In this document: positions 20,849 through 38,989 of the stretch, in pieces | How positions within the stretch are numbered: the stretch's first letter is position 1 | How the letters are laid out: each line of letters begins with the position of its first letter | Virus record (IMG/VR): IMGVR_UViG_3300000361_000002 | Coordinates: 1-39,158 of that record | DNA length: 39,158 nucleotides | Source: a virus | Direction: 5' to 3' (one strand) | Program-made: the position numbers and the translations under genes | The notes under the pieces: generated by a model | Told to the model about the DNA's origin: nothing | Database searches by the model: none | The model's input: only the letters and a program-made list of their open reading frames with translations

Positions 20849-21191
20849 AATAAACGTCGATGGAGAATGTGTAGGAATGAAAGATTTAAAAGCGGTAGAT
20901 GAATATAGTCTTGATGTCGCATTACCAGAATCATTTGAAGAAGAAATATCACTCTCTCCGAATTTGAATGCTGAAGAAGTTTCTTGGTTGAACAAGGCAG
21001 TCATTAGCTCTACAACAGTTGATAGTAAATTCGTTGATGGCCTATCCGAAAAGGATTGGGCTTATCTGACGTGTTCCATGCTTCATTACAATGCGTTCGG
21101 TGAAACACAACTTAGTAAAGAAGAAGTTTGGAGTAGATATACTGATTCAATTGATTTTGAAGCGGAAGAAACGCTGCTGGTGGTTCCATGA
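20841..21191 (+). CDS. Hypothetical acidic protein, 116 aa
   Basis: The overlap with both neighbours (8 bases before, 4 bases after) supports a real coding frame. Layout: two short strands ('MIEINVDGECVGMKDLKAVD'), an acidic stretch, then helices ('NLNAEEVSWLNKAVISS', 'LSEKDWAYLTCSMLHYNAFG'). It ends in 'EETLLVVP'. The family is not recognised. It precedes PCNA directly with coupled translation, suggesting a replication accessory role. Confidence 0.55.
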   Translation: MIEINVDGECVGMKDLKAVDEYSLDVALPESFEEEISLSPNLNAEEVSWLNKAVISSTTVDSKFVDGLSEKDWAYLTCSMLHYNAFGETQLSKEEVWSRYTDSIDFEAEETLLVVP

Positions 21192-22015
21192 CTTCAGAAA
21201 ACGAATTATTCAACTTCGAAACCACAGTGAGTAATTTAAAATCAATGTTGGAATGGGGTTCAGCTCCATTGGATACTGAAAAGTATAATAAAGTTCATTG
21301 GGAACTTAAAGAGGGTGAAATACAGGCGATTGCGAGTGCCGGGGGCGCGACTATATCCTATTGCACATTCCGCAAACCGTTTATTCGGGATTCAGAAATA
21401 ACGGACGAGTATGAGGATGATGGCATTGAAGCCATTTTGAATGTTCCTCAGATGGAAAATTATATTGATTTCGTGGGAGGGGATACCATTGAATTGACCT
21501 TCTTCAGTGATGGTGGTAAACGAAGTTCGCAATTGAGGATGGATGGAGATTTGTCAGCAAATATCTTCTTGGATAAATCGGAAGCAGATTATGGTAATGT
21601 CCAGAAGGGTATTGTTGATTTATACAACGAAGATAACGTCTTCCTGAAAAGCAGCGATAATCAACCACTTCCGGTGAACTTCACCACTCGTTCCCGGGAG
21701 ATAGAGAGAATTGTTGATGTTGTCGATTTTGACTCCTTTGCACTCGTGAATTATCCGGTCGTAGTTGAAGACGGTGAATTACTTCTCGATGCTTCGGATA
21801 AAAACGAGAGAGATTCAATCAAAGGCACACTTCACTCAGAAAACGTGGATGGTCCCGATGCTTCCTCGCAGTATAGTAGAGGCTTCTCGGAGCTATTCAA
21901 GAATATTGAAGGAAATATAGATGTTTCATTCGGAGAAGATTTACCGCTTTCAGTTGTGCGGGAGTCAAACGATGAAGCGTTGGTTTGTCGCTACCTTCTC
22001 CTTCCGAGTGTCTAA
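21188..22015 (+). CDS. pcn: PCNA-like sliding clamp, 275 aa
   Basis: The signature is strongest at the C-terminus: 'IDVSFGEDLPLSVVRESNDE ... ALVCRYLLLPSV', matching the archaeal PCNA ending (strand, D/E-x-P-x-x-V, acidic turn, then 'Y-L-L-A-P-R/V'). The interior fits two repeated processivity-fold domains: an N-terminal domain with 'DDGIEAILNVPQMENYIDFV', and an interdomain region near 'LPVNFTTRSREIERIVDVVD'. The latter is a longer, more acidic linker than in typical archaeal PCNA (about 245-250 residues). The protein would encircle DNA and tether polymerase, clamp-loader and modifying enzymes, several of which carry matching C-terminal peptides here. It is translated in overlap with the preceding gene. 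Confidence 0.8.
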   Translation: MTSENELFNFETTVSNLKSMLEWGSAPLDTEKYNKVHWELKEGEIQAIASAGGATISYCTFRKPFIRDSEITDEYEDDGIEAILNVPQMENYIDFVGGDTIELTFFSDGGKRSSQLRMDGDLSANIFLDKSEADYGNVQKGIVDLYNEDNVFLKSSDNQPLPVNFTTRSREIERIVDVVDFDSFALVNYPVVVEDGELLLDASDKNERDSIKGTLHSENVDGPDASSQYSRGFSELFKNIEGNIDVSFGEDLPLSVVRESNDEALVCRYLLLPSV

Positions 22016-22030
22016 CAAAACATTTAAATC
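22013..22030 (+). promoter_or_regulatory. Archaeal promoter (TAACAAAA-CATTTAAATC)
   Basis: The TATA box ATTTAAAT lies 26 bases before the primase ATG at 22054. The element starts at the stop codon of the PCNA gene, like other promoters in this arm. Confidence 0.65.
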
Positions 22031-22053
22031 ACACTCCTACTTCTTTCATTTCA

Positions 22054-23199
22054 ATGAATTCCGCGACGAAAGTTCTTTGCAATGGATTTCCGAGAACCGT
22101 TGCGTTCAAAAATGAAAACGGATTAAAGCAGACTTTCGTTCACTCGGAAAGCGAATTTGATGTTTTCACGGACCATCATCGGGAAAGTTCGAATATGTAT
22201 ATGAATATATCCCGGTTTCGAGAAGATATGCGTGTGATATGCCACGATTTTCCCTTTGATTTCGATAGCCCGGTTAAAACAAGCGCGTTTTCAGATGATC
22301 CCGGCGAAGCAGAGAAAATCCAAATGATGAGGGAAAATGAGGAACTGGCAGAAGAAGTTTTGGGAGAAGTTTGGGAAGACGCCCAACGACTTGTTGAGTA
22401 TGCTTGGGACGAAAATATTCCTGTTATATCCATTTTTTCAGGTATGGGAGTACATTCACATCTTTTGTTCAAAGAACAAGTAGAACCAACAAAAGAAAAA
22501 ATAAGTACGTCTGAGCATATAATTCAAAAGTTGGATTTGAATACATATGATAGACAGATTGTGACGGATATAAAGCGGGTTCTCCGCATTCCGAATTCAA
22601 AGCGGTTTGATGGAGCCATAGATACCAACACATACTGCATTCCGATGACTGAAGTTGAGGTTTTGAATAATACGATTCATGATTTATTGGAGAGATGCAA
22701 AAGACCCAAAGATATTGAAATACACAGTCGATATATTCAAGAAAATAGACCCGAGATGCAGGTGTATGACGATGTTGATATTAATGAGAATACATATGGT
22801 TCAATTCCGCTGAAAGAGAATAGAATTTCAGAAGATGTGGAGTACATCTTAGATACTTGCATTCCCTTGCCATGTGTCAGAAAGAGATTTAGCGGTCCTA
22901 ATCCCCATCACAGGATTCGGTTTACTGGTGTAATCCATCTATATCAAGCGGGTTTTACACCAGCGGAAGTTAGGAGCATTATCAAGAAGATAGGTTGGGT
23001 GGATTACGATAAGAACATCACGCATAAAATGACAGAGCAAATCTGGAATCGCCGTTACTCCGAATTACCATGCGATGAATTGAGAAGACTTGGTTTGTGT
23101 ATTTATGGACCGCAGTTTGAAGAAATGCCGGATGAACCTTCGGAATGTGAAACGTATAAATACCATTCTGGAAAGGCGCTTTATCCGTATGAGAATTGA
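22054..23199 (+). CDS. Fused archaeo-eukaryotic primase (PriS catalytic + PriL-type Fe-S domain), 381 aa
   Basis: I choose the ATG at 22054 because it follows a TATA box at the leaderless distance; an upstream ATG at 21985 overlaps PCNA. The catalytic half shows the D-x-D pair in 'HDFPFDFD' (D69, D71), the 'SGMGVHSH' motif at 129-136 equivalent to PriS S-G-x-G-x-H, and 'LRIPNSKRFDGAID', the third primase element. The C-terminal half has Cys 269, 274, 340, 349 and 365, in a helical setting like the 4Fe-4S domain of PriL ('DTCIPLPCVRKRF', 'LPCDELRRLGLC', 'SECETYKYHSGKALYP'). A single-chain PriS-PriL arrangement is known from some archaeal mobile elements. It would start viral DNA synthesis. Confidence 0.75.
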   Translation: MNSATKVLCNGFPRTVAFKNENGLKQTFVHSESEFDVFTDHHRESSNMYMNISRFREDMRVICHDFPFDFDSPVKTSAFSDDPGEAEKIQMMRENEELAEEVLGEVWEDAQRLVEYAWDENIPVISIFSGMGVHSHLLFKEQVEPTKEKISTSEHIIQKLDLNTYDRQIVTDIKRVLRIPNSKRFDGAIDTNTYCIPMTEVEVLNNTIHDLLERCKRPKDIEIHSRYIQENRPEMQVYDDVDINENTYGSIPLKENRISEDVEYILDTCIPLPCVRKRFSGPNPHHRIRFTGVIHLYQAGFTPAEVRSIIKKIGWVDYDKNITHKMTEQIWNRRYSELPCDELRRLGLCIYGPQFEEMPDEPSECETYKYHSGKALYPYEN

Positions 23200-23497
23200 A
23201 ATACTCGATTTATGTGAAGAGAATTTACAATTGTACGATGAATCGGTTCTAGAGATGTTAGAAGGGAGTCAGATTTATTCAGATGCGAACACGTGGAAGA
23301 TAAGAGATGTGGTTGGTATAGTAGACGATTGTGACATCCGAGATAATATTATTGAAATTGAAGCTTTTATCATTGATGATGATTCATCAAAAAAAATATC
23401 ATCGGGAATGGTGGATGTTGCACCATCCGTGACAATCAACCATCGTAAAGAAATCATTGATTTCGTTTCAGTACATCTCGTTCCGGAAGTTTTATAA
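23189..23497 (+). CDS. Small protein resembling a prohead-protease core, 102 aa
   Basis: The start is taken as the ATG at 23189, overlapping the primase stop by 11 bases; an upstream in-frame ATG would read through the primase gene. The order of elements 'WKIRDVVGIVDDCDIRDNII', 'EAFIIDDDSSKKISSGMVDV', 'APSVTIN', 'IIDFVSVHLVPEVL' parallels the virus's own maturation protease-like protein ('YEVVGEVEE...', 'KIDDEELANKIDNGWLEVSP', 'FDNLSVVVRGASP'). It lacks the His-containing upstream segment in recognisable form. It may be a stripped paralogue with a new role in the replication arm, or just a convergent small beta-barrel. Confidence 0.45.
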   Translation: MRIEILDLCEENLQLYDESVLEMLEGSQIYSDANTWKIRDVVGIVDDCDIRDNIIEIEAFIIDDDSSKKISSGMVDVAPSVTINHRKEIIDFVSVHLVPEVL

Positions 23498-23501
23498 ATA
23501 T
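23492..23501 (+). promoter_or_regulatory. TATA box for tRNA-Leu
   Basis: TTATAAATAT lies about 28-36 bases upstream of the mature tRNA 5' end at 23528, suitable for an independent tRNA promoter. It overlaps the end of the preceding gene (stop at 23495-23497). Confidence 0.5.
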
Positions 23502-23527
23502 CCGTTTGTAATAATGAATTGACGTGG

Positions 23528-23612
23528 ACCGGAGTAGCCAAGCTAGGCCAAAGGCGCGAAACTTAAGATTTCGTTTCTTAGGGATTCGCAGGTTCAAATC
23601 CTGCCTCCGGTA
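23528..23612 (+). tRNA. tRNA-Leu (anticodon UAA)
   Basis: The cloverleaf folds by hand. The acceptor stem is ACCGGAG/CTCCGGT (7 pairs, 23528-23534 with 23605-23611) with discriminator A at 23612. The D arm is GCC...GGC. The anticodon stem CGAAA/TTTCG encloses the loop CTTAAGA, giving anticodon TAA at 23564-23566. A 14-base variable region at 23574-23587 marks a class II tRNA. The T arm is GCAGG-TTCAAAT-CCTGC. The CCA is not encoded. It decodes UUA, a leucine codon frequent in this AT-rich virus and rare in GC-rich haloarchaea, so it likely supplements the host pool. Confidence 0.92.
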
Positions 23613-23617
23613 TAGAA

Positions 23618-23636
23618 TAACGAAAGTCTTTTAAAC
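23618..23636 (+). promoter_or_regulatory. Archaeal promoter (TAACGAAAG-TCTTTTAAAC)
   Basis: The TATA box CTTTTAAAC is preceded by CGAAAG. It lies 23-31 bases before the RFC small subunit ATG at 23659, which also has a GGGAGG site close by. Its sequence is almost the same as the element at 38987. Confidence 0.65.
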
Positions 23637-23658
23637 GTATGCATTTAAGGGAGGGTGT

Positions 23659-24633
23659 ATGATTGAAAAAAGAATTCTAACGGAAAAGTATCGTCCCTCG
23701 TCCCTCGATGAAGTGGTGGGCAATTCGGAAAACACCGAGATGTTGAAAAGCTACGTGAATGATGACCGCGTTCCAAATATTCTTTTTGAGGGTCCAGCGG
23801 GGGTTGGAAAAACTGCATCGGCCCAAGCGTTTGCTCGGGAAGTCTTTGGAAGTACGTGGAAATCAAATTTCATAGATTTCAATGCAAGTGATGATAGAGG
23901 CATCGATGTTGTTCGTGATGATATAAAAACAGCAGCTAGACAGGCAGCAGTCGGTCATGAATATAAAATCATCTTTCTTGACGAAGTAGATTCCACAACG
24001 AAAGACGCGCAATCGGCACTCCGTCGAACTATGGAGAGATTTTCCGACCAGACAGCCTTCTTCCTCTCTTGCAATTATAAGAATAAACTGATTGACCCAA
24101 TTCAATCTCGTTGCACTGTTCTCTCGTATAATAGACTTTCAGATGATGAAATACGAACGATAATTGAAAGAGTATTAACGGGAGAGGATATTGACGCTTC
24201 CGAAGAATCAATTGAAAAAATCATTGAATATGTCGATGGCGATGCACGACGGGCGCTCAATAGCATCCAAAGTTCTACACGCGATGATGAAATAAATTTG
24301 GAGACGTTAGCCTTCCCTCAAATTCGTGTAACAAGGGAGGAAATATCAGAAGTGGTAGAATTATCTGTTAATTCTAGGATGGAGGAAGCAATGGATAGAA
24401 TTAATGGAGAAATCATACCTGAAATTACTGATTATGGTGGTTTCTGTAGAGATTTGCTTTTTGCAATAAAAACAAATGAAAATATTAACAATGATGTTCG
24501 CTGGTTCTTGATGGGACAAGTTGGAGAATTGGAAAGGAATATGATGGAGGGGGCAAGTCCCGAAGTTCAAATAAATTCGTTTATTGCGAAAATCCCAGTT
24601 GCCCAATATTCAAGCATTTCAAATTATGAGTGA
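23659..24633 (+). CDS. rfcS: Replication factor C small subunit (clamp loader), 324 aa
   Basis: Canonical RFC-S features: 'LTEKYRPSSLDEVVGNSE' (RFC box II), Walker A 'GPAGVGKT' at residues 45-52, 'FNASDDRGIDVVRDDI' (the S-D-x-R-G-I-D motif), Walker B 'IIFLDEVD', 'QSALRRTMERFSDQTAFFLS' and the sensor/arginine finger 'IQSRC'. The C-terminal collar domain is present but short. With RFC-L (31163) and PCNA (21188) the virus has a complete clamp-loading set. It would open the viral PCNA ring in an ATP-dependent manner. All catalytic residues are intact. Translation of the next gene begins inside its last codons. Confidence 0.95.
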   Translation: MIEKRILTEKYRPSSLDEVVGNSENTEMLKSYVNDDRVPNILFEGPAGVGKTASAQAFAREVFGSTWKSNFIDFNASDDRGIDVVRDDIKTAARQAAVGHEYKIIFLDEVDSTTKDAQSALRRTMERFSDQTAFFLSCNYKNKLIDPIQSRCTVLSYNRLSDDEIRTIIERVLTGEDIDASEESIEKIIEYVDGDARRALNSIQSSTRDDEINLETLAFPQIRVTREEISEVVELSVNSRMEEAMDRINGEIIPEITDYGGFCRDLLFAIKTNENINNDVRWFLMGQVGELERNMMEGASPEVQINSFIAKIPVAQYSSISNYE

Positions 24634-24871
24634 TTTAAGAAATCCAATGCGGTTTAGCATACGGCATAAGACAGTTGATATTGACGGATGGTTAGGGGGT
24701 TCCAAAAAGGTTACGCAAATCGATATTCGACCGGGCGAAGGTCAAATATATGTTCATTGGGAAGAAACGGACAACGTAACAACATTTGCCGACTTGAAAG
24801 ATGTAAGTTCCGAAGAAGATACATTGGAAATAGCATTGGCAAAATGCAAGGTGAAAAATGAAGAAAGTTGA
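24626..24871 (+). CDS. Small beta-rich hypothetical protein, 81 aa
   Basis: The start is the ATG at 24626 (MSDLRNPMRFSIRHKTVDID), overlapping the RFC-S stop by 8 bases. Its body is mainly beta ('QIDIRPGEGQIYVHWEETDN') with a C-terminal helix ('EDTLEIALAKCKVKN'). It overlaps the nuclease start by 14 bases. No family is recognised. The tight overlaps on both sides argue that it is translated. Confidence 0.5.
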   Translation: MSDLRNPMRFSIRHKTVDIDGWLGGSKKVTQIDIRPGEGQIYVHWEETDNVTTFADLKDVSSEEDTLEIALAKCKVKNEES

Positions 24872-25664
24872 GAGATTATCGGCAAGTGGGTTGAAAAAAT
24901 TCGTGACTTGCCCGAAGCAGTTTATGCTTCACTATCTTTCGGATATAGAATCCCCCGAGGAAGAGGAACCAGAATTTTTTGATACTGGAAACTGCGTTCA
25001 CGACAGCATCGAATATGTTCTTAAAGAATATGATTTGGAAGAAATTAAAAATGAAGATGATTTTTTCGATATTCTCAAAGAAGAACAAATAGAATATAAT
25101 AATCAGGATAATGATACTGTAGATAATTGTTTTCGTACTGCTTCTCGATGGATTCCATCATTCGTCCAATCTGCGAATCACGTAGAAGAAGAGTGGTCAA
25201 TGGAACGTGATGGAATAGAATACAACGGGCTTGCTGACTTGGTTGCTGATGTTGAAATTGGTGGTAAGACATACGAAAACACAATCGTTGACTGGAAAAC
25301 AGGCAGTGAGACGGAACCGTGGAAAGAACGGGTTCAAGCTGGGATGTATATCGAAATGTTCTATGATAAGTTTGACCATTATCCCGAAGCTGCTGTTTTT
25401 GTTTATCTCGATGAAGAGACGCAATCATTCCATAGTCGGATTCAGGATGGTGAAGTTTTCTGGAACGAACATGAAAATAAATATTGGACGGAGATAGAAA
25501 AGATTAAAAATAAAATCATCCTTGCACAGCAGAAATCGGAATGGGAAGCGAAGCCCGAGCAGAGTAAATGCTACTGGTGTTCGTACAAGTATTATTGTTC
25601 TGATAGTCCAATTGGTGCAGAAGATGTAGGTATGAATGAAATTGAAATGGGTGAATGGTTATGA
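24858..25664 (+). CDS. Fe-S cluster RecB/Cas4-like nuclease (PD-(D/E)XK), 268 aa
   Basis: Nuclease motifs in order: 'GNCVHDSIE' with His 48, 'YNGLADLVAD' with the motif II Asp, 'TIVDWKTG' (D-x-K), and 'VQAGMYIEMF' (Q-x-x-x-Y). Cysteines expected for a 4Fe-4S cluster are present: Cys 18 in 'FVTCPKQF' and three in the C-terminal 'CYWCSYKYYC' (C-x2-C-x5-C). This is the Cas4/AddB-nuclease arrangement, common in viral and archaeal 5'-3' exonucleases acting in recombination. The tail 'EIEMGEWL' resembles a PCNA-interacting peptide (M at position 4, W-L at 7-8, as in archaeal PolB tails). No Cas genes lie nearby, so a CRISPR role is not suggested. Confidence 0.85.
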   Translation: MKKVERLSASGLKKFVTCPKQFMLHYLSDIESPEEEEPEFFDTGNCVHDSIEYVLKEYDLEEIKNEDDFFDILKEEQIEYNNQDNDTVDNCFRTASRWIPSFVQSANHVEEEWSMERDGIEYNGLADLVADVEIGGKTYENTIVDWKTGSETEPWKERVQAGMYIEMFYDKFDHYPEAAVFVYLDEETQSFHSRIQDGEVFWNEHENKYWTEIEKIKNKIILAQQKSEWEAKPEQSKCYWCSYKYYCSDSPIGAEDVGMNEIEMGEWL

Positions 25665-26308
25665 GTAAAGGAATTGTTTTAAGTTTATTTGATTATACCG
25701 GGAACATGGTAAAGCCTTGGGCTAAGAATGGTTATGAGTGCTATTGTGTAGATTTGAAGCATAAAGGAGAGGAATATACTGAGGATGATGATGTTGCTGG
25801 AGAGATTAATTATGTCGGGGCAGATATTGAAGATTATATTCCGCCAAGGAGAGAATATAGGATTGCATTTGCATTTCCACCTTGCGACAATTTGGCTGTT
25901 AGTGGCGCTCGGTGGTTCCAAGAAAAGGGAATTAAAGGTTTGAGTAATGGGGTTGAGAATTTTTTGAGGGCGAAAGAGATATGCGAATGGAGCGATGCTC
26001 CATATATGATCGAAAATCCCGTTTCAGTGATTTCGTCTTATTGGCGAGAGCCTGATTTTACGTTTCATCCCTATGAATATGACGGATATACGAACGAAGA
26101 CAATAAATACCAAAAAAGAACTTGTTTGTGGGTGGGAAATGGTTTTGTGTTTCCAGATAAACAGCCATCAGAAGAACATGATCAAAGAATTCACCAGTCT
26201 TTTCCGTCAGATGACGAAGAAAGAAAAGAATTTCGTTCTAAAACACCACAAGGTTTTGCAAATGCAGTTTATGAAATAAATGAAGGAACGGGAGTTTTTG
26301 ATTATTAA
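25661..26308 (+). CDS. C5-cytosine methyltransferase-like protein, 215 aa
   Basis: I start at the ATG at 25661, which overlaps the previous stop (ATGA); another ATG lies 6 bases upstream. Motifs: an SAM-binding-like start 'VLSLFDYTGNMVKPWAKNG', an acidic strand end 'CYCVDLKH', the catalytic-type 'FPPCDNLAVSGARWF' (P-P-C at residues 73-75), and 'YMIENPVSVI' (E-N-P at 118-120, equivalent to E-N-V). The target-recognition part and motifs VIII-X of standard enzymes are shortened or missing. It resembles a phage family of small Dcm-like proteins; action on DNA or on a nucleotide is open. It ends 'GTGVFDY', matching the PCNA-peptide-like tail seen elsewhere in this genome. Confidence 0.6.
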   Translation: MSKGIVLSLFDYTGNMVKPWAKNGYECYCVDLKHKGEEYTEDDDVAGEINYVGADIEDYIPPRREYRIAFAFPPCDNLAVSGARWFQEKGIKGLSNGVENFLRAKEICEWSDAPYMIENPVSVISSYWREPDFTFHPYEYDGYTNEDNKYQKRTCLWVGNGFVFPDKQPSEEHDQRIHQSFPSDDEERKEFRSKTPQGFANAVYEINEGTGVFDY

Positions 26309-26314
26309 AGAAAG

Positions 26315-27039: not shown

Positions 27040-27246
27040 ATGACAGCAGAAATTCCTCAGAAAAAACCTTCTCCGCGTAGTACTAGAGATAATCCAAATG
27101 TCGCAGGATTCATGACAGGAGTTATCTTGACTGGAACATTATTTTGGTCATTGTATGGTGGTTACATGGACTTTGCGTATCTCAACGTTATCCTCCTTAC
27201 TGTGTTGGCTGTTGGAACGCATTTTATCAACCGAAAATACAATTAA
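27040..27246 (+). CDS. Small membrane protein with two TM helices, 68 aa
   Basis: After a basic, polar N-terminus ('KKPSPRSTRDNPN') come two hydrophobic helices: 'VAGFMTGVILTGTLFWSLYG' and 'FAYLNVILLTVLAVGTHFI', with a short loop and a basic end 'NRKYN'. The size and two-helix hairpin are compatible with a holin-like or membrane-remodelling protein. However, it sits in the replication arm just before the polymerase, not by a lysis gene, so the role is open. It is the only clear membrane protein in the window. Confidence 0.55.
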   Translation: MTAEIPQKKPSPRSTRDNPNVAGFMTGVILTGTLFWSLYGGYMDFAYLNVILLTVLAVGTHFINRKYN

Positions 27247-27250
27247 AAAA

Positions 27251-30200
27251 ATGAGTGAATTAGGTCGAGTTACATACGTCGATTACTGCATCGATGATGA
27301 CTTAGGTGTACTTGTCCGTTTGTCAGCACGTTTGGAGAACGGAGAACGGTGGAATGGGTATGTTCGAGGAACAGAACCGTATATTTTTGCACCGGAAGAT
27401 GAACCGATTCCGGATAAGGATTATATTGAGAGAACGGAAGTAGGTTATGAATCTCTCTTTGACCATCAACTTCGGAAGATTGTTACACGTACTCCGAAAC
27501 AAGCTGGTGGACTTACCGATGAATTTACTTGGACTGGTGAGGGCGACGTTCCCTACTATCGTCGTGTATCGATTCACGATGGACTGAGTGGGTATATTGA
27601 AATTCCCGAAACCGGGGAAGAATATGCAGGTTTTCCGTTGGTTCATATTGACGATATAGACGTTGACCCTAAATACGAATCCGTAATCAAACCACGTATT
27701 TCCATTGCCGACATTGAAGTTGAAGTTCCAGAGAATTCAACCTTCAAGGAAATGCAAGAGGAAGCGAATAAACCCATTAATGTTATCTGTTCTTACGATA
27801 CATATGAGGATGAATATACTGTCTTCTTTTATGATAAATACGATAATATCGAGCCGTCTGATGTATCTCACTATATGGAAGAGCAACTAAAGGGGACTTC
27901 CATTGAAGAATATCTCGAATCGGATATGGAGTTAGTCATCGCTGACTCTGAAGTTGATATGCTTAATTCGTATATCAAGTATGTTTCCGAGCGAGATTTT
28001 GATTTAGAAAGCGGCTGGAACTATGTTGATTTCGACAGGAGATATATTAGACGGCGTATGAAAACGCTTTATAACGAAGGTGAGAACATCCATCCTTCGT
28101 GGCTTTCACCGTTTGAAAAGCTGTCGAATTCCCATGATGAACATCGGAAAATAGTAGGTAGGTCGCCGTTCGATATGATGGTCGCCTTCGTAGATAAGCT
28201 CACCTTTTCCAATTGGCGCTCTAAATCACTTGAATACGTTGCCAATGAGGAACTTGGGATAGGGAAAATAGGCGATGTTGATATTAACGACGATTGGAAG
28301 AATAATCCATCACGGCTGGTTGCTTACAATATTGTCGATAGTATTTTGACTGTTGCTTTGGATGATAAAAATGATATTCATGGCTTTTTCTACGAAATGG
28401 CTAACGTTTGCTCCATTCCAATTACGGATGTTTTCTACGAGAAGAGACAGATTGACGGATACTTAATGTCGAATCGGCCAGATGACGAAATCCACCCGAC
28501 TGCTGAAGAGACTGAAGACATTAATAATGCAGGTGGGTATGTTGCCGAAGCTGCAAATGGTCGGATTGAGAATGTCGGTGTGAGCGACCTGAAGAGTCTT
28601 TATCCCTCTGCGATGATTACGTGGAATCTCAGCCCGGAAACGCTTGCTGATACTCCTAAAAACTTCGATGAATATATCAAAGTCCCGAAAGTTCCTGAAC
28701 CGAAGGATGTAGAGGGTGAGATTGAAGAAGATGGAATTGAATTCGAGTGGAAATACGCTTCTTTTGACCAAGAGGGCATTCTTCCACGGAATGTAAAACG
28801 TCTTTTTGAGAAACGGAACCGGGAAAAGGAGAAAATGTATGAGGTGGAAGAAGGTTCTGCTGAGTATGAAAAATGGAACAGGAAGCAAGGAGCGACAAAA
28901 ATTCTCATGAATTCGATGTACGGGGTTGCTAGCTCTAAGTATTGGCGGTTGTCTACACAGTATCTCGGAGATGCTATTACCTCTACAGCACGATATACAC
29001 TATGGAAAGGAAAGAAGACGCTTGATAGACTTGGATATGAACACGTCTACAGTGATTCTGTGTCGGGTGAACGTTTGGTTGTCATTCGTCATGTCGAAGA
29101 TAAATCGGTTGATTGTATCCCAATTTCCGAATTATGGGAAGAAATTGATGGTCGTGTGACGGGGGAGGAAAAGGAGCGAAAGCAGTGTCTTCAATATGAA
29201 GCACTATCGGTAAATGGGAAGGGCGAATCTGAATGGAAGCCGATAAATGAAATCATCCGCCATAAGACAGATAAAAAACTCGTTGAATTGCAACAGGCCC
29301 GTGGCGGTTCAGTTACAACAACCGACCATTCATATGTCTTTCCAGTAGACGGAGAACTGACAGAGAAAAAACCTTCCGAAGTTAAACGGCCATACAGAAT
29401 TGATATTCCCGATTCTCAATCCGTTGATAGTATTGCTTTATCCGAATATTTGGATGATTATAGTATCCAAGCTAATGGAATAGGCCGCAGTGAGAAAGTG
29501 GAAAAAAGAGTCCAAGAGGAAGATGGCGAATTATATTTTGGAGAATCGGAAACTTCCCATTATAACAGGCATACATTCTGCATAAATGAAATTTCCGGAG
29601 AGGTTTTGGAATCCTTGGTTCGTTTATGCGGCGCATATGTTGCTGATGGTTCTTCAAGTACCCACAAAACTTCCGATTGTGGGAAATGGGGGTTGAGTAT
29701 TGCCAATGAAGATGTGAGTTGGTTAGAGGAATTGAAGGCTGATTACTTGGATGTTTTCCGTGGTTGCGACCCCTGCATTGTTGAAAGTGATGCAAATGAC
29801 ACGAGAGAGGTTGATGATATATCATATAATGATGAGACTATGAAAATGCAAGCTATGAATCGGATTTCGGCTGTTGTTTTCCAGAGTCTATGTGGGGCTA
29901 AGTCTACCGGGAAGGAAGTTCCTTCCTTCATTTTCAATCTCCCAGAAAAATACAAGTGGCAGTTTATACGCTCGGCTGTCCGGGGCGACGGCTCTAATAT
30001 TTTCCCCCGGTATTCCGATGAATATGCAGAGAGGAATTTTAGTTATTGTACTCAGAGTTTAAAACTCGCCTCCGGTATGTCTGTCTTGCTTAATCAACTC
30101 AACGTAAAACACAACATTGATTACCGCGATTCAAAGAACACGTATGAGATTCGCACAGCGGATAATTATCAAAATAGAGATGATGATGCTGTAGTGAAGG

Positions 30201-31090
30201 AGGTTGAGGGAAGCGAATATGTATATGATTTATCCGTCGAGGATAATCAGAATTTTGCCGATGCATTGGGCTGTGTTGCGCTACACAACACCGATTCCCA
30301 TATGTTTAAACTTCCTGATGGTTCTGTAGAAGAGCAAGTGGAAGAACTAGAGTGGGTATCATCTCAAATGGACGAAGATGCTTCTGAAATATTAAGTGAT
30401 TGCGGTTATGACGATACTCATCCGTTTTTAAAGGAATCAAATTTACATGGAGATGAATATACTTGTATGCTTTGGGAAGCAGAAAAGTTCGGGACTCATT
30501 TGCAATTGGGACGGAAAAAGAGGTATGCACAAGCGATAATTTGGAAAGAGGGAAGATACTATGACGAACCCAAGGTTTCAATTTCCGGTTTTGAGAACGC
30601 AAGGTCTGATAGTCCTGAAATCACTGCTTCTATGCAGGAGAAGGTTATAGAGAAGGTTCTATTCGGGTCTGATTTTGAAGAAATATCTGAGTATATCCAA
30701 TCCGTTATAGACCAAATTGATGAAAGCCACGTCGACGTAAAAAAATTCGCACTTCCGGGTACTATCAATAAAGATTTAGAGGAGTATCCCAATAGACAAA
30801 TCCCACGGGCTTGTATGTGGTCCAATGAACATCTAAATAGAGAGTTTTCTGAAGGGGATACCCCCTTCGTCTATTTCGTCAAAGAAACTCCATCGGATTT
30901 ACCTCAAACTGATGTGGTTGCTCTGGAATGGAATGAGGAGATACCGGACGGATTCAAATTGGATGAAGAAGCCATCATAGAGCGAGCGATTAGAAAACCA
31001 GTTGAGCAAATTATAGAGAGTGTTGGATGGAACTGGAAAGAAATACGGAGTGGAAGGAAGGTAAGGACAATTGATTTGACTTCTGATTGA
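27251..31090 (+). CDS. polB: Family B DNA polymerase interrupted by an intein, 1279 aa precursor (868 aa mature)
   Basis: The ATG at 27251 (MSELGRVTYVDYCIDDD) is preferred; the open frame extends upstream but overlaps the membrane protein gene. Proofreading domain: Exo I 'IADIEVE' (D154, E156), Exo II within 'NYVDFDRRYIRRR', Exo III 'YNIVD'. Polymerase domain: motif A 'DLKSLYPSAM' (D446), motif B 'KILMNSMYG' (K550), motif C 'YSD...TDS' (600-602 and 1014-1016), and 'RKKRY' at 1088-1092. Motif C is split by the intein (603-1013), so the enzyme is inactive until splicing. The mature size of 868 suits archaeal viral PolB. Unlike its partners, the C-terminus ('RTIDLTSD') has no aromatic PCNA-peptide. 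Confidence 0.95.
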   Translation: MSELGRVTYVDYCIDDDLGVLVRLSARLENGERWNGYVRGTEPYIFAPEDEPIPDKDYIERTEVGYESLFDHQLRKIVTRTPKQAGGLTDEFTWTGEGDVPYYRRVSIHDGLSGYIEIPETGEEYAGFPLVHIDDIDVDPKYESVIKPRISIADIEVEVPENSTFKEMQEEANKPINVICSYDTYEDEYTVFFYDKYDNIEPSDVSHYMEEQLKGTSIEEYLESDMELVIADSEVDMLNSYIKYVSERDFDLESGWNYVDFDRRYIRRRMKTLYNEGENIHPSWLSPFEKLSNSHDEHRKIVGRSPFDMMVAFVDKLTFSNWRSKSLEYVANEELGIGKIGDVDINDDWKNNPSRLVAYNIVDSILTVALDDKNDIHGFFYEMANVCSIPITDVFYEKRQIDGYLMSNRPDDEIHPTAEETEDINNAGGYVAEAANGRIENVGVSDLKSLYPSAMITWNLSPETLADTPKNFDEYIKVPKVPEPKDVEGEIEEDGIEFEWKYASFDQEGILPRNVKRLFEKRNREKEKMYEVEEGSAEYEKWNRKQGATKILMNSMYGVASSKYWRLSTQYLGDAITSTARYTLWKGKKTLDRLGYEHVYSDSVSGERLVVIRHVEDKSVDCIPISELWEEIDGRVTGEEKERKQCLQYEALSVNGKGESEWKPINEIIRHKTDKKLVELQQARGGSVTTTDHSYVFPVDGELTEKKPSEVKRPYRIDIPDSQSVDSIALSEYLDDYSIQANGIGRSEKVEKRVQEEDGELYFGESETSHYNRHTFCINEISGEVLESLVRLCGAYVADGSSSTHKTSDCGKWGLSIANEDVSWLEELKADYLDVFRGCDPCIVESDANDTREVDDISYNDETMKMQAMNRISAVVFQSLCGAKSTGKEVPSFIFNLPEKYKWQFIRSAVRGDGSNIFPRYSDEYAERNFSYCTQSLKLASGMSVLLNQLNVKHNIDYRDSKNTYEIRTADNYQNRDDDAVVKEVEGSEYVYDLSVEDNQNFADALGCVALHNTDSHMFKLPDGSVEEQVEELEWVSSQMDEDASEILSDCGYDDTHPFLKESNLHGDEYTCMLWEAEKFGTHLQLGRKKRYAQAIIWKEGRYYDEPKVSISGFENARSDSPEITASMQEKVIEKVLFGSDFEEISEYIQSVIDQIDESHVDVKKFALPGTINKDLEEYPNRQIPRACMWSNEHLNREFSEGDTPFVYFVKETPSDLPQTDVVALEWNEEIPDGFKLDEEAIIERAIRKPVEQIIESVGWNWKEIRSGRKVRTIDLTSD
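29057..30289 (+). mobile_element. Intein with LAGLIDADG endonuclease in PolB motif C, 411 aa
   Basis: The junctions are 'HVYSD | SVSGERLVVIRH' and 'CVALHN | TDSHMF'. The first intein residue is Ser rather than the more usual Cys; the C-terminus is the canonical His-Asn, and the +1 extein residue is Thr. Block B is likely 'GSVTTTDHSYVF' (T-x-x-H). The endonuclease domain has two LAGLIDADG-type motifs, 'LVRLCGAYVADGS' and 'QFIRSAVRGDGSNIF'. Both keep the acidic residue, so homing activity is plausible. Excision restores Y-S-D-T-D-S exactly. Motif C is a well-known insertion site of polymerase inteins. Confidence 0.93.
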
Positions 31091-31162: not shown

Positions 31163-32386
31163 ATGGGAGAAAATTTAGTTGAGAAATACAGACCGAAAAC
31201 CCTTGAAGATGTACAGGGACATAATTCTAATATAAAAAAGACAAAGCGATGGGCAGAATCATGGAGTCCCGATTCAAAACCCCTTTTGTTTCATGGTCCC
31301 GCTGGAACTGGAAAAACGAGTACAGCGGAATGCTTGGCAAATGATATGTCGTGGGATTATCGGGAGATAAATGCATCACAAAGCAGGAAGAAAGGAGACT
31401 TTGAATTAATTTCTCAAGAGATACGTTCACATGGAGATACTAAAACGCTTTTTGTTTTCGATGAAGTGGATTCTGTGGACGGTCGGAATATACAAATTCT
31501 TTCGAAGATTTTAGAAGCTTCCCCGAATCCTGTAATTTTCATAGCCAATGAGAAGTGGAAAGTGCCAAATTCAATCGAAAACCAATGTAAAGTTTTAAAA
31601 TTTAATTTGCGTAAAGATTCTATAAAGACCCACATCAGAAATATCTGCCAAGAAGAAGACATCCAAATTAATTCTAGAGAGTTGGGTAAACTTTCAACAC
31701 GAAACGGAATCCGAGATGCATTGAATGATTTAGAAGAATACATTCATCACGAAGAAGTGGGATGGGATGATAGGGAAACAGACGACTCTCCTTTCGCTGT
31801 AACTCGACGTGTGATTTTAAATAAAAATTATATTGGAGATGCGAAACCGGATGATTTAGTTGATTTCTTGAACGAGAATGTGAAAAATAATTTTGATGGT
31901 GTTGAATTGTTGAGAGCGTATCAAGCTTTAGCGGAGTCAGATAGATTGCTCGGTTATGTGAATAGAAGTCAAGATTATAGTTTTTGGGCGTATGCTTCTC
32001 CTATTGCTACGGAAGTTTCAAATTTACGATTGACAGAACCATATAATGACTGGGTGAATGTTAATTATCCCCGTAGGAGAAGGAATTATCGTTCTACTTC
32101 TCGTTCGGATACTCCTGAAGCAAATTTATATAAGGAATTACAGGAAGATGAATCTATCATCCTTACGTCCTCCTTTAAAGAATTCGTTGAAGTTCATCTT
32201 GACGTTTTAAAAAAGCAGTCAAAGGAAGAAAGAATTGAATTCGCTTCTTCAATCGGTCTTTCATCTAAATCATTGAAAGCAATAGACCTTTCTTCATCCG
32301 ATTTAGATTCGTGGAGATTTGAAGAAGTAGAAGAAGATGCTGTAGAGGACGAAGAAGTGGAAGATATGAGTATATTTGACTTTTAA
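31163..32386 (+). CDS. rfcL: Replication factor C large subunit, 407 aa
   Basis: 'LVEKYRPKTLEDVQGHN' opens the protein (RFC box II), followed by Walker A 'GPAGTGKT' at 45-52 and Walker B 'TLFVFDEVD'. 'VIFIANEKWKVPNSIENQC' replaces the S-R-C box found in small subunits, which marks a large subunit. The C-terminal extension is very acidic, 'EEVEEDAVEDEEVEDMSIFDF'-like, ending in a PCNA-interacting peptide. In Pyrococcus RFC-L the equivalent tail is Q-A-T-L-F-D-F, so register and aromatic residues agree, with the first Gln lacking. It loads the viral PCNA together with RFC-S. At 407 residues it is shorter than haloarchaeal host RFC-L. Confidence 0.92.
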   Translation: MGENLVEKYRPKTLEDVQGHNSNIKKTKRWAESWSPDSKPLLFHGPAGTGKTSTAECLANDMSWDYREINASQSRKKGDFELISQEIRSHGDTKTLFVFDEVDSVDGRNIQILSKILEASPNPVIFIANEKWKVPNSIENQCKVLKFNLRKDSIKTHIRNICQEEDIQINSRELGKLSTRNGIRDALNDLEEYIHHEEVGWDDRETDDSPFAVTRRVILNKNYIGDAKPDDLVDFLNENVKNNFDGVELLRAYQALAESDRLLGYVNRSQDYSFWAYASPIATEVSNLRLTEPYNDWVNVNYPRRRRNYRSTSRSDTPEANLYKELQEDESIILTSSFKEFVEVHLDVLKKQSKEERIEFASSIGLSSKSLKAIDLSSSDLDSWRFEEVEEDAVEDEEVEDMSIFDF

Positions 32387-32395
32387 ATGAAAATC

Positions 32396-33109: not shown

Positions 33110-33110
33110 T

Positions 33111-33320: not shown

Positions 33321-33338
33321 GTTCCTCATATTCGTAAC

Positions 33339-33350
33339 CTTTATATGTGT
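33339..33350 (+). promoter_or_regulatory. TATA box for the dCTP deaminase cluster
   Basis: CCTTTATATGTG lies about 30-40 bases upstream of the ATG at 33380, in the 59-base gap. It is slightly farther from the start than other promoters here. Confidence 0.5.
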
Positions 33351-33379
33351 AAAAACTTTATTGACTATGTGTTCAATGT

Positions 33380-34865: not shown

Positions 34866-35466
34866 AGGAAATTTCATTGTTCTAGAGGGAATTGATAATG
34901 CAGGGACTAGCTCTCTTACGAATAATTTACAGAGGCATTTGGATAACGATGAGTGGGTATTTACAAAAGAACCGTCCGAAGGCCGATATGGTGCAGTCGT
35001 GCGTGAATTTCTTAGCGATGAAAATGAGCCAACACCTTCTGATTTTTATCTGTTTCTTGCTGATAGGTATGAGCATTGCGAGAACGTGATTCGTCCTGCT
35101 TTGGAAGAAGGGACAAATGTTCTCTGCGATAGATACCATCAATCCACGTTGGCCTACCAGAGTCGAATTTTGGACGAGCAGTTGGGAATTATAGACCCAT
35201 TGAAATATATTGATGAGATGACCGGACATTTTATTGTAGAGCCAAATTTGGTGCTATACATAGACATTCCGGTCGATGTATCGCTTGAGAGGATGGGCGA
35301 TGATGTTGAAAAGTACGAAAAAGAAGAAACTCTGAAAGAAGCAAAGCGTATTTACGATTATCTCTGCGAAGAGAATGATAATATTACCCGGATTGATGGA
35401 ACGCAATCGGAGGAAGCGGTAACTGCGGAAGCATTAAAACATGTCGGACCCGAAATACTCGGTTGA
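34858..35466 (+). CDS. Thymidylate kinase-like protein with altered P-loop, 202 aa
   Basis: The overall match to TMK is good: 'NFIVLEGIDNAGTSSLTNNL', 'FTKEPSEGRYGAVVREFLSD', 'LLF-type helix with LFLADRYEH', 'NVLCDRYHQSTLAYQ' (D-R-Y), and 'LVLYIDIPVDVSLERM'. In the Walker A motif G-x4-G-K-S the Lys is replaced by Thr: G11-I-D-N-A-G16-T17-S18. That Lys contacts the ATP beta/gamma phosphates and is nearly invariant in kinases. The codon is ACT, two changes from Lys. Either activity is low or uses another residue, or the protein has a non-kinase role. Length and the remaining motifs are normal. Confidence 0.8.
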   Translation: MSEGNFIVLEGIDNAGTSSLTNNLQRHLDNDEWVFTKEPSEGRYGAVVREFLSDENEPTPSDFYLFLADRYEHCENVIRPALEEGTNVLCDRYHQSTLAYQSRILDEQLGIIDPLKYIDEMTGHFIVEPNLVLYIDIPVDVSLERMGDDVEKYEKEETLKEAKRIYDYLCEENDNITRIDGTQSEEAVTAEALKHVGPEILG

Positions 35467-35686
35467 AATAGAAATCAACGAAGGCGATTTATTGTACCAC
35501 AACGATAGGTGGTGGGAAGTGGAAAATATCGAATGGCGCATGGGTCAAAAAGAAGCATGGTTGAAACCGATGTGGGATGATGGACATATGATGGTTCTTG
35601 GACCTGAAGAATGGCAAGAGAGAATTAATTACACTGGAGAATTCAGAAGGATAAAGGAAGAGTACCAGAACGTCGTTGATTTCTAA
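35441..35686 (+). CDS. Small hypothetical protein, 81 aa, PCNA-peptide-like tail possible
   Basis: The ATG at 35441 overlaps the TMK-like gene by 26 bases. A beta-barrel-like pattern ('EIEINEGDLLYHNDRWWEVE', 'NIEWRMGQKEAWLKPMWDDG', 'HMMVLGPEEWQERINYTGEF') recalls small SH3-like domains. The C-terminus is 'EYQNVVDF', loosely like the (S/G)-(I/V)-F-D-(Y/F) tails of neighbours, with V for F. Function unknown. Confidence 0.5.
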   Translation: MSDPKYSVEIEINEGDLLYHNDRWWEVENIEWRMGQKEAWLKPMWDDGHMMVLGPEEWQERINYTGEFRRIKEEYQNVVDF

Positions 35687-35704
35687 TTCGGAATCTTTTT
35701 AATG
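35684..35704 (+). promoter_or_regulatory. Archaeal promoter (TAATTCGGAATCTTTTTAATG)
   Basis: The TATA-like TCTTTTTAAT follows directly on the previous stop. The ATG at 35726 is about 24-30 bases downstream and therefore the likely start; the in-frame ATG at 35702 lies within the TATA element. Confidence 0.6.
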
Positions 35705-35725
35705 CTTCGAAGCAAAAGAGATTGC

Positions 35726-37360
35726 ATGGATAATAGAACTGTAGAAGAAGTATGGCCTTCTGATTATTTTCGAGAGAAGCAAAAAGAAACTTTAAAAGTA
35801 TGTCTTGATGCACTCGATGCCGGGTATAAGAATATTGTTATAGACGCTCCCGTTGGTTCGGGGAAGTCAGTTTTACTTACAGCACTTTCCCGGTATGCCG
35901 ATAGTTCTTTTTATACCACACCTCAAAAATCATTAAGAGAGCAGATACAAAATGATGACTTGTTAGAACCTTTCACAGAAAATCTAAAGGCGCGGAGGGA
36001 TTATCGTTGTTCAATTACTAGAGAAAATTGTAAGGATTGCTCGATATATAATGACGAAGATGAATCCTGTGCGGAACATGGATGCAGTTATTGGAAACGC
36101 AAGCAATCGGTAATGGCTTCCGATATTGCTGTAATTACATTTTCCATGTTGGTTGTTGATGGTATGATTCCCGAATTTTCGGGAGAGACGAAAATATCAT
36201 TTGGGAAGCGGGATGTAGTATGCGTCGATGAAGCACATGGTATTGTCCAACAAACTGCTGATATGCACGCGGGTTTTGATATTACCCCCTACGGTTATCC
36301 TGATGGATTCATTAGCGATGTAACAAATTCTGTTTCTTGGGAAGCAAATACTTATAAAGATGTCTCCGACGAGTTGAGGGTCATTCACTCTAAATGCAAT
36401 AATTACATTCGTGATGTTCCTCCGTTTGAAATGACTTCTATGGAAAAAAAGATGCTTCGCTTGAAAGAAAAAATCGAAAGAGCAAAGCAAGATTCCGAAA
36501 ATGGTTATGTGTGGGTTGTGAACGTTGAAGGGAAAAACTACAGAGGAAGGTATGAAAAAGTCCTCGAACTTCGTCCTATTTATGTTGGGAATTTTCTCAA
36601 TAACTTCATTTGGAATAGGGGGAAAAGAAGAATTATTTCAACTGCAACCCTTCCACATCGAGGGAATCCGAATATCTGGCTGAAGCAAGTCGGACTCGAC
36701 CCCGAGAAAACCAAAGTTATCAGTGTTGGAATGACTTTTCCGGCTAAAAATCGCCCCGTGGTTCTTGATGATATGGTTTGTTCCATGAGCAACGGGGGCG
36801 ACCAGAAGAATTGGGATTCGATAATGGAGAAACTGAATGAAATTGCAAAAAGGTATCGAGGCATGAAAGGGATTTGTCATACCGCGAGCTATGACCGTGC
36901 TGAAAGGGTTGAAAAATCTACAACAAAAGAAGAACATCCACATCTATATGATAATATTTTTGTTCATTATGGTGAAAAAGAAGCAGAAGATGTTATTGAA
37001 GAATGGCAGGCAAGTAATAATGACCTGCTTCTTACTCCCTCCATGATGGAAGGGATTGATTTAAAGGGGGATATGGGCAGATATAACATCCTCATGAAAG
37101 TTCCATATCCGTCAAAAAATTCGAGGATAGAATACCTTCTAAATGAAACGGATTATGGCTGGAATTCGTACTTTGATAGAGCAGCTATCCGTGTCGCACA
37201 AGCGTATGGAAGGACTACGAGGAGTGCGGAAGACTGGAGTAACTTCATAATCTTAGACAAGGATTACGAGAAGTTGAAGAAGAAAGCAAATTTACCCCAA
37301 TGGCTTCTACAAGGAGAAGATTATGTCGAAATAGGTACAAGGAGTATATTTGATTATTGA
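35726..37360 (+). CDS. XPD/DinG-type Fe-S superfamily 2 helicase, 544 aa
   Basis: Walker A 'APVGSGKS' (41-48) is followed by a cysteine cluster C95, C102, C105, C115 and C120 ('YRCSITRENCKDCSIYNDED', 'SCAEHGCSYW'), where XPD/Rad3/DinG helicases hold a 4Fe-4S cluster. Motif II is 'VCVDEAHG' (D-E-A-H at 168-171). Late motifs are 'LLLTPSMMEGIDLKGD' and 'AIRVAQAYGRTTRS' (motif VI, Q-x-x-G-R-x-x-R). This would be a 5'-3' DNA helicase. The C-terminus 'GTRSIFDY' is the clearest of the repeated PCNA-peptide-like tails. No other replicative helicase is evident in the window, so it may support fork unwinding or recombination. The next gene starts 1 base after its stop. Confidence 0.88.
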   Translation: MDNRTVEEVWPSDYFREKQKETLKVCLDALDAGYKNIVIDAPVGSGKSVLLTALSRYADSSFYTTPQKSLREQIQNDDLLEPFTENLKARRDYRCSITRENCKDCSIYNDEDESCAEHGCSYWKRKQSVMASDIAVITFSMLVVDGMIPEFSGETKISFGKRDVVCVDEAHGIVQQTADMHAGFDITPYGYPDGFISDVTNSVSWEANTYKDVSDELRVIHSKCNNYIRDVPPFEMTSMEKKMLRLKEKIERAKQDSENGYVWVVNVEGKNYRGRYEKVLELRPIYVGNFLNNFIWNRGKRRIISTATLPHRGNPNIWLKQVGLDPEKTKVISVGMTFPAKNRPVVLDDMVCSMSNGGDQKNWDSIMEKLNEIAKRYRGMKGICHTASYDRAERVEKSTTKEEHPHLYDNIFVHYGEKEAEDVIEEWQASNNDLLLTPSMMEGIDLKGDMGRYNILMKVPYPSKNSRIEYLLNETDYGWNSYFDRAAIRVAQAYGRTTRSAEDWSNFIILDKDYEKLKKKANLPQWLLQGEDYVEIGTRSIFDY

Positions 37361-37361
37361 A

Positions 37362-38144
37362 ATGACAGGTGAGAATGACAGCGAATGGATAAATAAAATC
37401 CATCATGGAGATGCTGTTGAAGTTCTTAAAGAAATACCAAATGATTCTATTGATTTAGTTGTTACTAGCCCACCATATAATGTTGGTATCGATTACGGTG
37501 AATATGATGACAGCATTTCAAAGTGGGAATATGCACTTTTGATAAAGGATATATTTGTTCAACTAAATAGGAAAGTTAAAGATGATGGACGTGTCTGCAT
37601 CAATATTTCGTTGAAAAACGATGGTGGAATTGTCGATATTCCTTCTATTATTAAAGAGAAGGCGGATATCTTTGATTGGCATTTGAGATTCGAGATAATA
37701 TGGAATAAAGGGAGCAGCGAGTCGTCTAGTGCATGGGGGTCGTGGAGAAGTCCAAGTAGTCCAAGGCCGATATTCAATCATGAATATATTTTGGTTTTTG
37801 ATGTTGGGGATTCTTCCAAAAATTCTGAACAGACAATAGAGAAGGAGAGGTTTATGAATTTGGTGAAATCTGTTTGGGATGTGAAACCTGAAACATCTTC
37901 TGACCATCCTGCTCCTTTTCCGGTAGAAATTCCAAAGCGTTTGATAGAATTGAATTCATATGAGGGAGATGTTGTCTTGGACCCATTTATGGGAAGTGGT
38001 ACGACAGCCGTAGCCTGTGAAAAAATGAATCGTGAGTGGATTGGCATTGATTTGAATGAAGAATATATACGTTCAAGTTACGAGAGAATCGATGATGAAA
38101 CGAAATGGCTTCCAGATGACGAGGGGAGCATTTTCGATTACTAA
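37362..38144 (+). CDS. Beta-class DNA methyltransferase, probable N4-cytosine type, 260 aa
   Basis: The first ATG is at 37362; a TTG a few codons upstream lies inside the helicase gene. Motif IV comes first ('VVTSPPYNVG', S36-P-P-Y39) and the SAM-binding F-x-G-x-G motif last ('LDPFMGSGTTAVACEKMNRE'), the beta-class order. S-P-P-Y is typical of N4-cytosine enzymes, though some N6-adenine enzymes use it. The tail 'PDDEGSIFDY' resembles a PCNA-interacting peptide. No restriction endonuclease is adjacent, so a solitary methyltransferase protecting viral DNA or marking replicated DNA is most likely. It is followed by a second methyltransferase at 2 bases. Confidence 0.88.
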   Translation: MTGENDSEWINKIHHGDAVEVLKEIPNDSIDLVVTSPPYNVGIDYGEYDDSISKWEYALLIKDIFVQLNRKVKDDGRVCINISLKNDGGIVDIPSIIKEKADIFDWHLRFEIIWNKGSSESSSAWGSWRSPSSPRPIFNHEYILVFDVGDSSKNSEQTIEKERFMNLVKSVWDVKPETSSDHPAPFPVEIPKRLIELNSYEGDVVLDPFMGSGTTAVACEKMNREWIGIDLNEEYIRSSYERIDDETKWLPDDEGSIFDY

Positions 38145-38146
38145 CA

Positions 38147-38989
38147 ATGACTGACAAAGATAACATAGAATATTGGTTGAATGCAGTCCATCAAGGAGAC
38201 GTGATTGAAAAGTTGAAGGAAATGCCCGAGGGGTCAGTGGATTTGGTCATTTCTGACCCCCCATATAACCTTTCTACTGGCTCGGATATGTATTACGGTG
38301 GAGACGGTGATGGTGACTTTGGTGGTGAGTGGGGAAAAGTGAATGAAAATTGGGATAACTTTGATGATGGAGAATATATGCAGTTTACTTTCGAATGGGT
38401 AAAGCAATGCAAAAGAATATTGGAAGATGGTGGTGGGATTTTTATTTTTGGAACATATCATAATATAGGCGATGTTAATGTAGTTTTGAATAAGCTTTCT
38501 TTGACAATATTAAACGAAATAATATGGTATAAAAGAAATGCTTTTCCGAATTTATCTACTACCAGTTTAACAGCAAGTCACGAAAACATTTTGTGGGCTT
38601 ATAAGGGCAATGATAAAAATTATAAGTTTAATTATGATGAAATAAAGGAAGGCAAATGGGAATATGATTCCTTTGATAAGGAAAATACACAAGTTAGAAC
38701 TGTTTGGAATATACCAAATAATAAACAGTTTGATGAAGAGAAAGATATAGACCACCCTACTCAGAAACCAAGGTCTGTCATCGATAGAATAGTTAGAATG
38801 GCAAGTGATGAAGAGGATATTATCCTTGACCCTTTTGCTGGTTCGGGAACTTCCCTCGTTGCAGCTAAACAAAACAGCAGAAAATACATTGGAATTGAGA
38901 GGGAAGAAGAATTTGTTAAAACAACAAGAAACAGATTGGAAAAGTGTGATGAGCATGAAGACGATGGAAGGAGCATATTTGACTATTAA
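38147..38989 (+). CDS. Beta-class DNA methyltransferase, probable N6-adenine type, 280 aa
   Basis: Motif IV 'VISDPPYNLS' (D37-P-P-Y40) precedes motif I 'LDPFAGSGTSLVAAKQNSRK', giving beta class with D-P-P-Y as in N6-adenine enzymes. 'DHPTQKP' just before motif I is the common 'H-P-T-Q-K-P' motif. The sequence between them ('WNIPNNKQF') may hold target contacts. The tail 'EDDGRSIFDY' is almost the same as the helicase tail 'GTRSIFDY' and that of the previous methyltransferase. The pair are diverged in sequence (different insert and catalytic motif), so they modify different targets. No cognate nuclease is visible. Confidence 0.9.
   Translation: MTDKDNIEYWLNAVHQGDVIEKLKEMPEGSVDLVISDPPYNLSTGSDMYYGGDGDGDFGGEWGKVNENWDNFDDGEYMQFTFEWVKQCKRILEDGGGIFIFGTYHNIGDVNVVLNKLSLTILNEIIWYKRNAFPNLSTTSLTASHENILWAYKGNDKNYKFNYDEIKEGKWEYDSFDKENTQVRTVWNIPNNKQFDEEKDIDHPTQKPRSVIDRIVRMASDEEDIILDPFAGSGTSLVAAKQNSRKYIGIEREEEFVKTTRNRLEKCDEHEDDGRSIFDY

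Follow-up and report, generated by a model that had tools for sequence, protein, structure and literature searches.

The PCNA-interacting-protein (PIP) box has the consensus QxxhxxAA (PMC4929162), and in archaea such boxes sit at the extreme C-terminus; among confirmed PCNA ligands, 34% lack the Gln at position 1 and 43% lack one of the aromatics (PMC6881253). In phage T4, three proteins (gp43, gp55 and gp33) bind the gp45 clamp through C-termini of a common hydrophobic-acidic kind that can be exchanged between them (PMC2988020). Here we describe a short C-terminal tail shared by unrelated DNA enzymes that are encoded in a 39,158-base window, which is the entire IMG/VR virus record IMGVR_UViG_3300000361_000002. 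This virus is related to the tailed viruses of salt-loving archaea. Its replication arm resembles the replication module of the Druskaviridae (HVTV-1/2, HCTV-1/5/16; ∼26–40% protein identity), and five IMG/VR contigs are closer (∼45–75% identity in the main replication proteins). We consider it probable that the tails are PIP-like short linear motifs that let these enzymes dock on a divergent PCNA encoded by the virus itself.

Five proteins of the window end in the strict form of the tail, [ILV]F[DES][YF] (Table 1), where 0.009 are expected (p=4.5e-13) from the rate of this pattern at internal positions in 424 proteins from this group of viruses (0.00018). Record G003 (IMG/VR 3300019926_000028) holds seven such tails against 0.016 expected (p=4e-17), and the strict pattern ends only one of 918 shadow open reading frames (ORFs). 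Position by position, the tail reads (E/x)-x-(S/G)-(V/I/L)-F-D-(Y/F)-COOH, and the wider consensus admits D, E or S before the final residue. All six core-pattern tails of the window belong to genes of the replication arm (6 of 25), and the structural arm has none (0 of 23). At each position of the tail the codons used differ between copies (AGTATATTTGATTAT, AGCATTTTCGATTAC, AGCATATTTGACTAT) while the residues stay, and the constraint therefore acts on the protein. The original prediction, made from this sequence alone, had quoted all of these C-termini correctly at their stop codons, including those of an 81-residue protein (p81) and a nuclease, and its argument that differing codons point to selection on protein rather than recent copying is supported.

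The tails are retained in relatives. RFC-L, the large subunit of the clamp loader, ends in KGLFDY (three relatives), KGIFSY or KGIFDF, and in SQSVLDF in HVTV; the helicase ends in SVFDY, TVFDY and SVFDY, and the homologue of the N6/N4 methyltransferase MT1 in contig L005 in GIFEY. The NVVDF tail of p81, which had been listed alongside the five, is likewise conserved: of three relatives, two have it, as NVIDF and NVIDY. The RFC-L tail follows an acidic linker that varies in both length and sequence, and identity there is 63% in the last four columns vs 23% in the 25 linker columns before them; for the helicase the figures are 88% in the tail columns and 44% before the tail. Such conservation beyond a diverging linker indicates that the tail is under selection in RFC-L and the helicase. 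In L002–L006, a further PIP-like motif of more canonical form stands upstream of the RFC-L tail (SNLSDFI, TTLDEFV, TKISEFI, SEIEEFD), which is absent from the window RFC-L; the combination of upstream motif and tail suggests two clamp contacts on the loader in these relatives. The small subunit, RFC-S, has a tail-like look of its own, its C-terminus being kept as SSI(S/P)(N/S)YE by four of the five members of the clade (24580–24633 in the window), an end that possibly belongs to the folded collar domain.

About a dozen unrelated families carry the tail, including RFC-L, the helicase, HNH, TnpB and p81. Five kinds of DNA methyltransferase are among them (C5-like, N6/N4, D12, Dam and phrog_363), of which the D12-class (PF02086), Dam (PF05869) and phrog_363 enzymes were found in other records. 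G003 contributes an HNH nuclease and a TnpB, L134 a TnpB-like protein, and G001 a SLOG/GTP-binding-like protein. It is possible, from their C-termini, that mobile-element nucleases of the TnpB kind could dock on the clamp. The TnpB-like proteins at L111:5739-6935 and L134:687-1874, the latter identified by eye, end in GLFSY and SLFEY respectively. The tail is absent from three bacterial-phage homologues of the C5-methyltransferase-like protein, from the ends of bacterial-phage homologues of the N6/N4 enzymes and from the HRTV-27 homologue of the second N6/N4 methyltransferase, MT2 (45% identical). In the background from an RFC-L profile scan, which consisted mostly of distant RFC/clamp-loader relatives, the 1273 genes held four core tails, of which three are near-identical. 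The simplest reading of these distributions would be repeated acquisition of the tail by unrelated enzymes. The MGEWL end of the nuclease is a weak candidate for this set, as it is not conserved: relatives end in QMGDFL, EMGELL, STRMF and EIEAGI, and the 'end processing' arm that had been built on it is not supported.

The genes for RFC-S and RFC-L share an arm with the gene that was originally called a viral PCNA, and the call holds by predicted fold, though without a sequence-profile match: none was found among Pfam, NCBIfam and PDB profiles, and a profile-profile comparison with PCNA was weak (E 0.011, probability 3.7%, collinear over 226 columns). The AlphaFold2 model used, made with 16 rows, has a predicted local distance difference test score (pLDDT) of 84.9 and a predicted template modelling score (pTM) of 0.82; five sequences gave a pLDDT of 35. 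In a Foldseek search of the PDB the top 50 matches to this model were all PCNA (E 4e-14 to 5e-12, 11–16% identity), and the two-domain PCNA fold reached template modelling scores up to 0.78 against archaeal PCNAs. The best viral match of the model was a protein of HVTV-1, and sequence identity to the HVTV PCNA is 31%. An extra helix is predicted at residues 135–145, in the expected interdomain-connector region and partly at low confidence, and may reshape the clamp pocket; conservation of the connector region is only average and so does not in itself speak for a pocket at this site.

The tails follow the lineage of this clamp. The seven records of the window lineage hold 26 core tails in 568 genes, with the clamp gene in six of the records and none found in G007, a 9-kb fragment. 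Core tails number 0 in ∼711 genes of six haloviruses without a PCNA match (Hardycor2, HRTV-27, HGTV-1 and the contigs G004, G005 and G006, which are not established as complete genomes), and helicase homologues in four clamp-less viruses have no tail. Homologues in viruses without this clamp thus lack the tail, and the common occurrence of the same tails in close relatives without PCNA, which the original prediction had named as one finding that would refute it, was not seen. HGTV-1 was kept in the clamp-less set, its weak match to the PCNA profile (E 0.01) having been dismissed as it sits inside the RtcB gene.

That the tails bind host PCNA, with the virus using or competing for the host clamp, is an unlikely alternative. 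Their core spacing does match archaeal PIP boxes, and a 96-residue hypothetical protein of clamp-less HGTV-1 (L154:40244-40534) ends in QGDLFDYQ, a Gln-containing, PIP-like sequence whose LFDY core may fit the host clamp. Yet clamp-less viruses use eight-residue Gln PIPs on PolB and have no Gln-less terminal tail in those ∼711 genes, and the form of the tail co-varies with the viral clamp lineage. The PolB ends readable in five of the six clamp-less viruses (QTGLAAFC, QRGLADYV, QSGLKAFM, QESLGAFM, QSGLAQFM) are canonical Gln PIPs, which fits use of the host clamp, and Haloferax polymerases also carry Gln-PIPs (PMC2737543); the host-type PIP is drawn from these two sources. A helicase scan of genome contigs returned just two remote matches, in thermophilic archaeal metagenome-assembled genomes.

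The Druskaviridae bear on the nature of the partner, as here the tail takes the form VL[DSE][FYW] across unrelated proteins: RFC-L ends in SVLDF, D12 methyltransferase in DVLDF, C5 methyltransferase in DVLSY, an acyltransferase in PLDF, HNH in DVLDY or PLDY, DUF6610 in NVLEF or DVLDF, gp98 in SVLEF and PolB in GVLSW. Position –3 is thus Leu in these proteins vs Phe in 21 of 24 window-clade tails (Fisher 1e-5 to 7e-5, with families counted by hand). Such a concerted change would be explained most simply by a shared, co-evolving partner. The partner could instead be a different hub of the virus, such as an SSB/RPA-like protein, the recombinase or RFC-S, in a clamp-independent replisome, since the data demand just one that co-evolves with the tails and the window-clade PolB lacks the tail; we think this as unlikely as binding to the host clamp. 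Carriers include expected clients of a clamp, RFC-L and, in Druskaviridae, PolB, the motif spacing equals that of a PIP box, and the T4 precedent is a clamp. An effect at the DNA level, whether from overlapping ribosome-binding sites (GGAG), AT-rich spacers or a recently copied gene-end cassette, is very improbable: GGAG does stand just before the tail in several copies and the next gene is close in some, but the tail persists without a close following gene in MT2 and RFC-L, and in Druskaviridae the residue variants change together. Overlap with ribosome-binding sites in particular was rejected, contradicted by the codon variation, as the residues stay constant and shadow ORFs almost never end in the pattern. 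Short hydrophobic C-termini can be degrons in other systems, but a degradation or virion-packaging signal is the least credible reading of all, as carriers of known function act on DNA or in replication (the Druskaviridae acyltransferase excepted), none lies on the structural arm of the window and a clamp loader is not expected in virions.

How closely the tail corresponds to a PIP box can be read from the 24 clade tails. PIP position 4 is I, L or V and position 7 is Y or F in all 24, and the tail shares with the PIP box the h4-x-x-a7 spacing, an acid at position 6, a small residue at position 3 and the extreme C-terminal site. The exact spacing occurs together with Gln in two G003 tails (QKGIFDF and QGSVFDY) and in HVTV-2 PolB (QGGVLSW), cases too few for significance alone; the two G003 tails align in register with the Pyrococcus RFC-L peptide QATLFDF, as that sequence was quoted in the original prediction. 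The tail differs from the PIP box in usually lacking Gln-1, often replaced by Glu, and in lacking residue 8, as the chain stops after the aromatic.

Several observations weigh against docking on the viral clamp. Gln-1 is found in none of the six window tails and in two of the 24 clade tails (Glu in 10 of 24), and position 8 is missing throughout, the chain ending after position 7 in all 24. The tail flanks are acidic, and acidic flanks have been argued to disfavour PCNA binding, a conclusion made without reference to a high-salt cytoplasm (PMC6881253). The window-clade PolB, the window's own ending in RTIDLTSD and those of relatives in NPFA/NPFG, has neither the tail nor a canonical Gln-PIP, so that a role for it as a tailed client is not supported in this clade, and it may reach the clamp in another way. 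(The NPFA/NPFG end is kept in five relatives, and no NPF is encoded just downstream of the window PolB, 31060–31090.) The contrast between lineages (26/568 vs 0/711; Fisher p=5e-10) is computed from gene counts that treat related records as independent and that were made with slightly different gene-length cut-offs in the two sets. Lastly, HSTV-1 encodes a host-like PCNA, yet its proteins have no tails; the claim is therefore limited to this clamp lineage and does not extend to any viral PCNA. Measured against the textbook consensus, the tails are no PIP boxes: they have the hydrophobic position 4 and the aromatic position 7 but usually lack Gln-1 and always lack residue 8, making 'PIP-like variant' a better term than the earlier 'PIP peptide'.

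Docking on the viral clamp is nevertheless favoured because T4 gp43, gp55 and gp33 provide a direct functional precedent and because variants of the PIP box are tolerated. The tail would fit the viral PCNA, probably at the pocket next to its interdomain connector, and act as a PIP box cut short: Gln has mostly gone, the end of the chain stands in for the second aromatic position, and the terminal carboxylate may be part of the ligand. Through the clamp, the loader would find its ring, while both helicase and DNA methyltransferases would stay on newly made viral DNA. Such tethering could lead to quick methylation of daughter strands, most plausibly against host restriction; methyltransferases of haloarchaeal viruses have been discussed as defences of this kind (PMC8651126). 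Of the clamp 'tool-belt' originally proposed, the part supported by comparative evidence (tracking of the clamp lineage, conservation, the spread over unrelated methyltransferases) is retained, and end processing is left unsupported. More tentatively, and with somewhat less than even confidence, we suggest a private clamp code, in which a PCNA too diverged for its sequence to be recognized, and altered in its connector, is matched by a carboxylate-terminated tail that newly captured enzymes (the five kinds of DNA methyltransferase and even HNH and TnpB endonucleases) repeatedly acquire, the whole drifting as a unit between lineages and orthogonal to host PCNA.

The window is organized in two arms (Table 1). 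Portal, terminase and tail genes make up the minus-strand arm. The plus-strand arm encodes RadA, an AAA ATPase, PCNA, a protein with 36% identity to the one annotated as primase in HVTV-2, RFC-S, a PD-(D/E)XK nuclease, methyltransferases, an intein-bearing PolB, RFC-L, nucleotide-metabolism genes and a Rad3/XPD-like helicase. The PolB intein lies at 29066–30290 (residues 650–1045 of ORF 27155–31090; Pfam Intein_splicing); the L004 PolB (1197 residues) also seems to bear an intein, and those of L002, L005 and L006 do not. A tRNA-Leu gene (TAA anticodon; 23528–23612) lies directly upstream of RFC-S.

Table 1. Clamp, clamp-loader and tail-bearing genes of the window, with the positions of their C-terminal tails.
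Feature	Position	Strand	Evidence or remark
Divergent viral PCNA (sliding clamp), 275 residues	21188..22015	+	Predicted fold
RFC small subunit (RFC-S; clamp loader)	23659..24633	+	Pfam AAA, Rep_fac_C; 38-57% identity to relatives
PD-(D/E)XK nuclease	24858-25664	+	MGEWL end at 25647..25661, stop ends 25664; weak candidate
C5-methyltransferase-like DNA methyltransferase (phrog_757)	25655..26308	+	PHROG E 1.8e-65
Tail GVFDY, C5-methyltransferase-like protein	26291..26305	+	Stop ends 26308
RFC large subunit (RFC-L; clamp loader)	31163..32386	+	NCBIfam RFC-L models E 2e-52, below those models' curated cut-offs; 48-58% identity to relatives; start 31163 set by alignment to relatives
Tail SIFDF, RFC-L	32369..32383	+	Stop ends 32386
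81-residue protein (p81), no assigned function	35441..35686	+	Tail NVVDF at 35669-35683, stop ends 35686
XPD/Rad3/DinG-like helicase	35702..37360	+	Pfam Helicase_C_2 E 1e-22; DEAD_2 weak
Tail SIFDY, helicase	37343..37357	+	Stop ends 37360
N6/N4 DNA methyltransferase 1 (MT1)	37362..38144, likely start 37362	+	Pfam N6_N4_Mtase E 5e-45
Tail SIFDY, MT1	38127..38141	+	Stop ends 38144
N6/N4 DNA methyltransferase 2 (MT2)	38147..38989	+	Pfam N6_N4_Mtase E 2e-54
Tail SIFDY, MT2	38972..38986	+	Stop ends 38989

We found no earlier report of such tails among the open-access papers searched by keyword. If docking on the viral clamp is correct, the tails would be a clear case of unrelated enzymes of viruses gaining the same docking peptide repeatedly and by convergence, and the clamp codes of host and virus would form a natural pair for studying co-evolution between a hub protein and its peptides. 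The last five residues would then offer a simple, testable rule for spotting members of viral replisomes, also among proteins with no assigned function such as p81.

The closest functional parallel is T4, where several proteins likewise share a hydrophobic-acidic C-terminal epitope and the virus also encodes the clamp. The carriers in T4 are three (the polymerase and late transcription factors), whereas here they comprise about a dozen families, among which DNA methyltransferases, mobile endonucleases and a helicase stand out; the T4 clamp is gp45, whereas the window virus, one of an archaeal group, has a PCNA. The closest genomic parallel is the Druskaviridae, which have RadA, AAA, PCNA, primase, RFC-S, a Cas4-like nuclease, PolB and RFC-L in common with the window and also have tails on RFC-L and methyltransferases, but in the VL[DSE][FYW] form and with PolB among the carriers, unlike in the window clade. 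In eukaryotes, DNMT1 is recruited by PCNA through a PIP in a disordered region (PMC6881253). There, the PIP is internal and the enzyme serves maintenance methylation of the cell genome, whereas here unrelated viral methyltransferases would use terminal tails; the common element would be a DNA methyltransferase that the replication clamp holds in place to methylate DNA once it has been copied, and the proposal, if it holds, places the DNA methyltransferases of archaeal viruses on the clamp just as DNMT1 is in eukaryotes.

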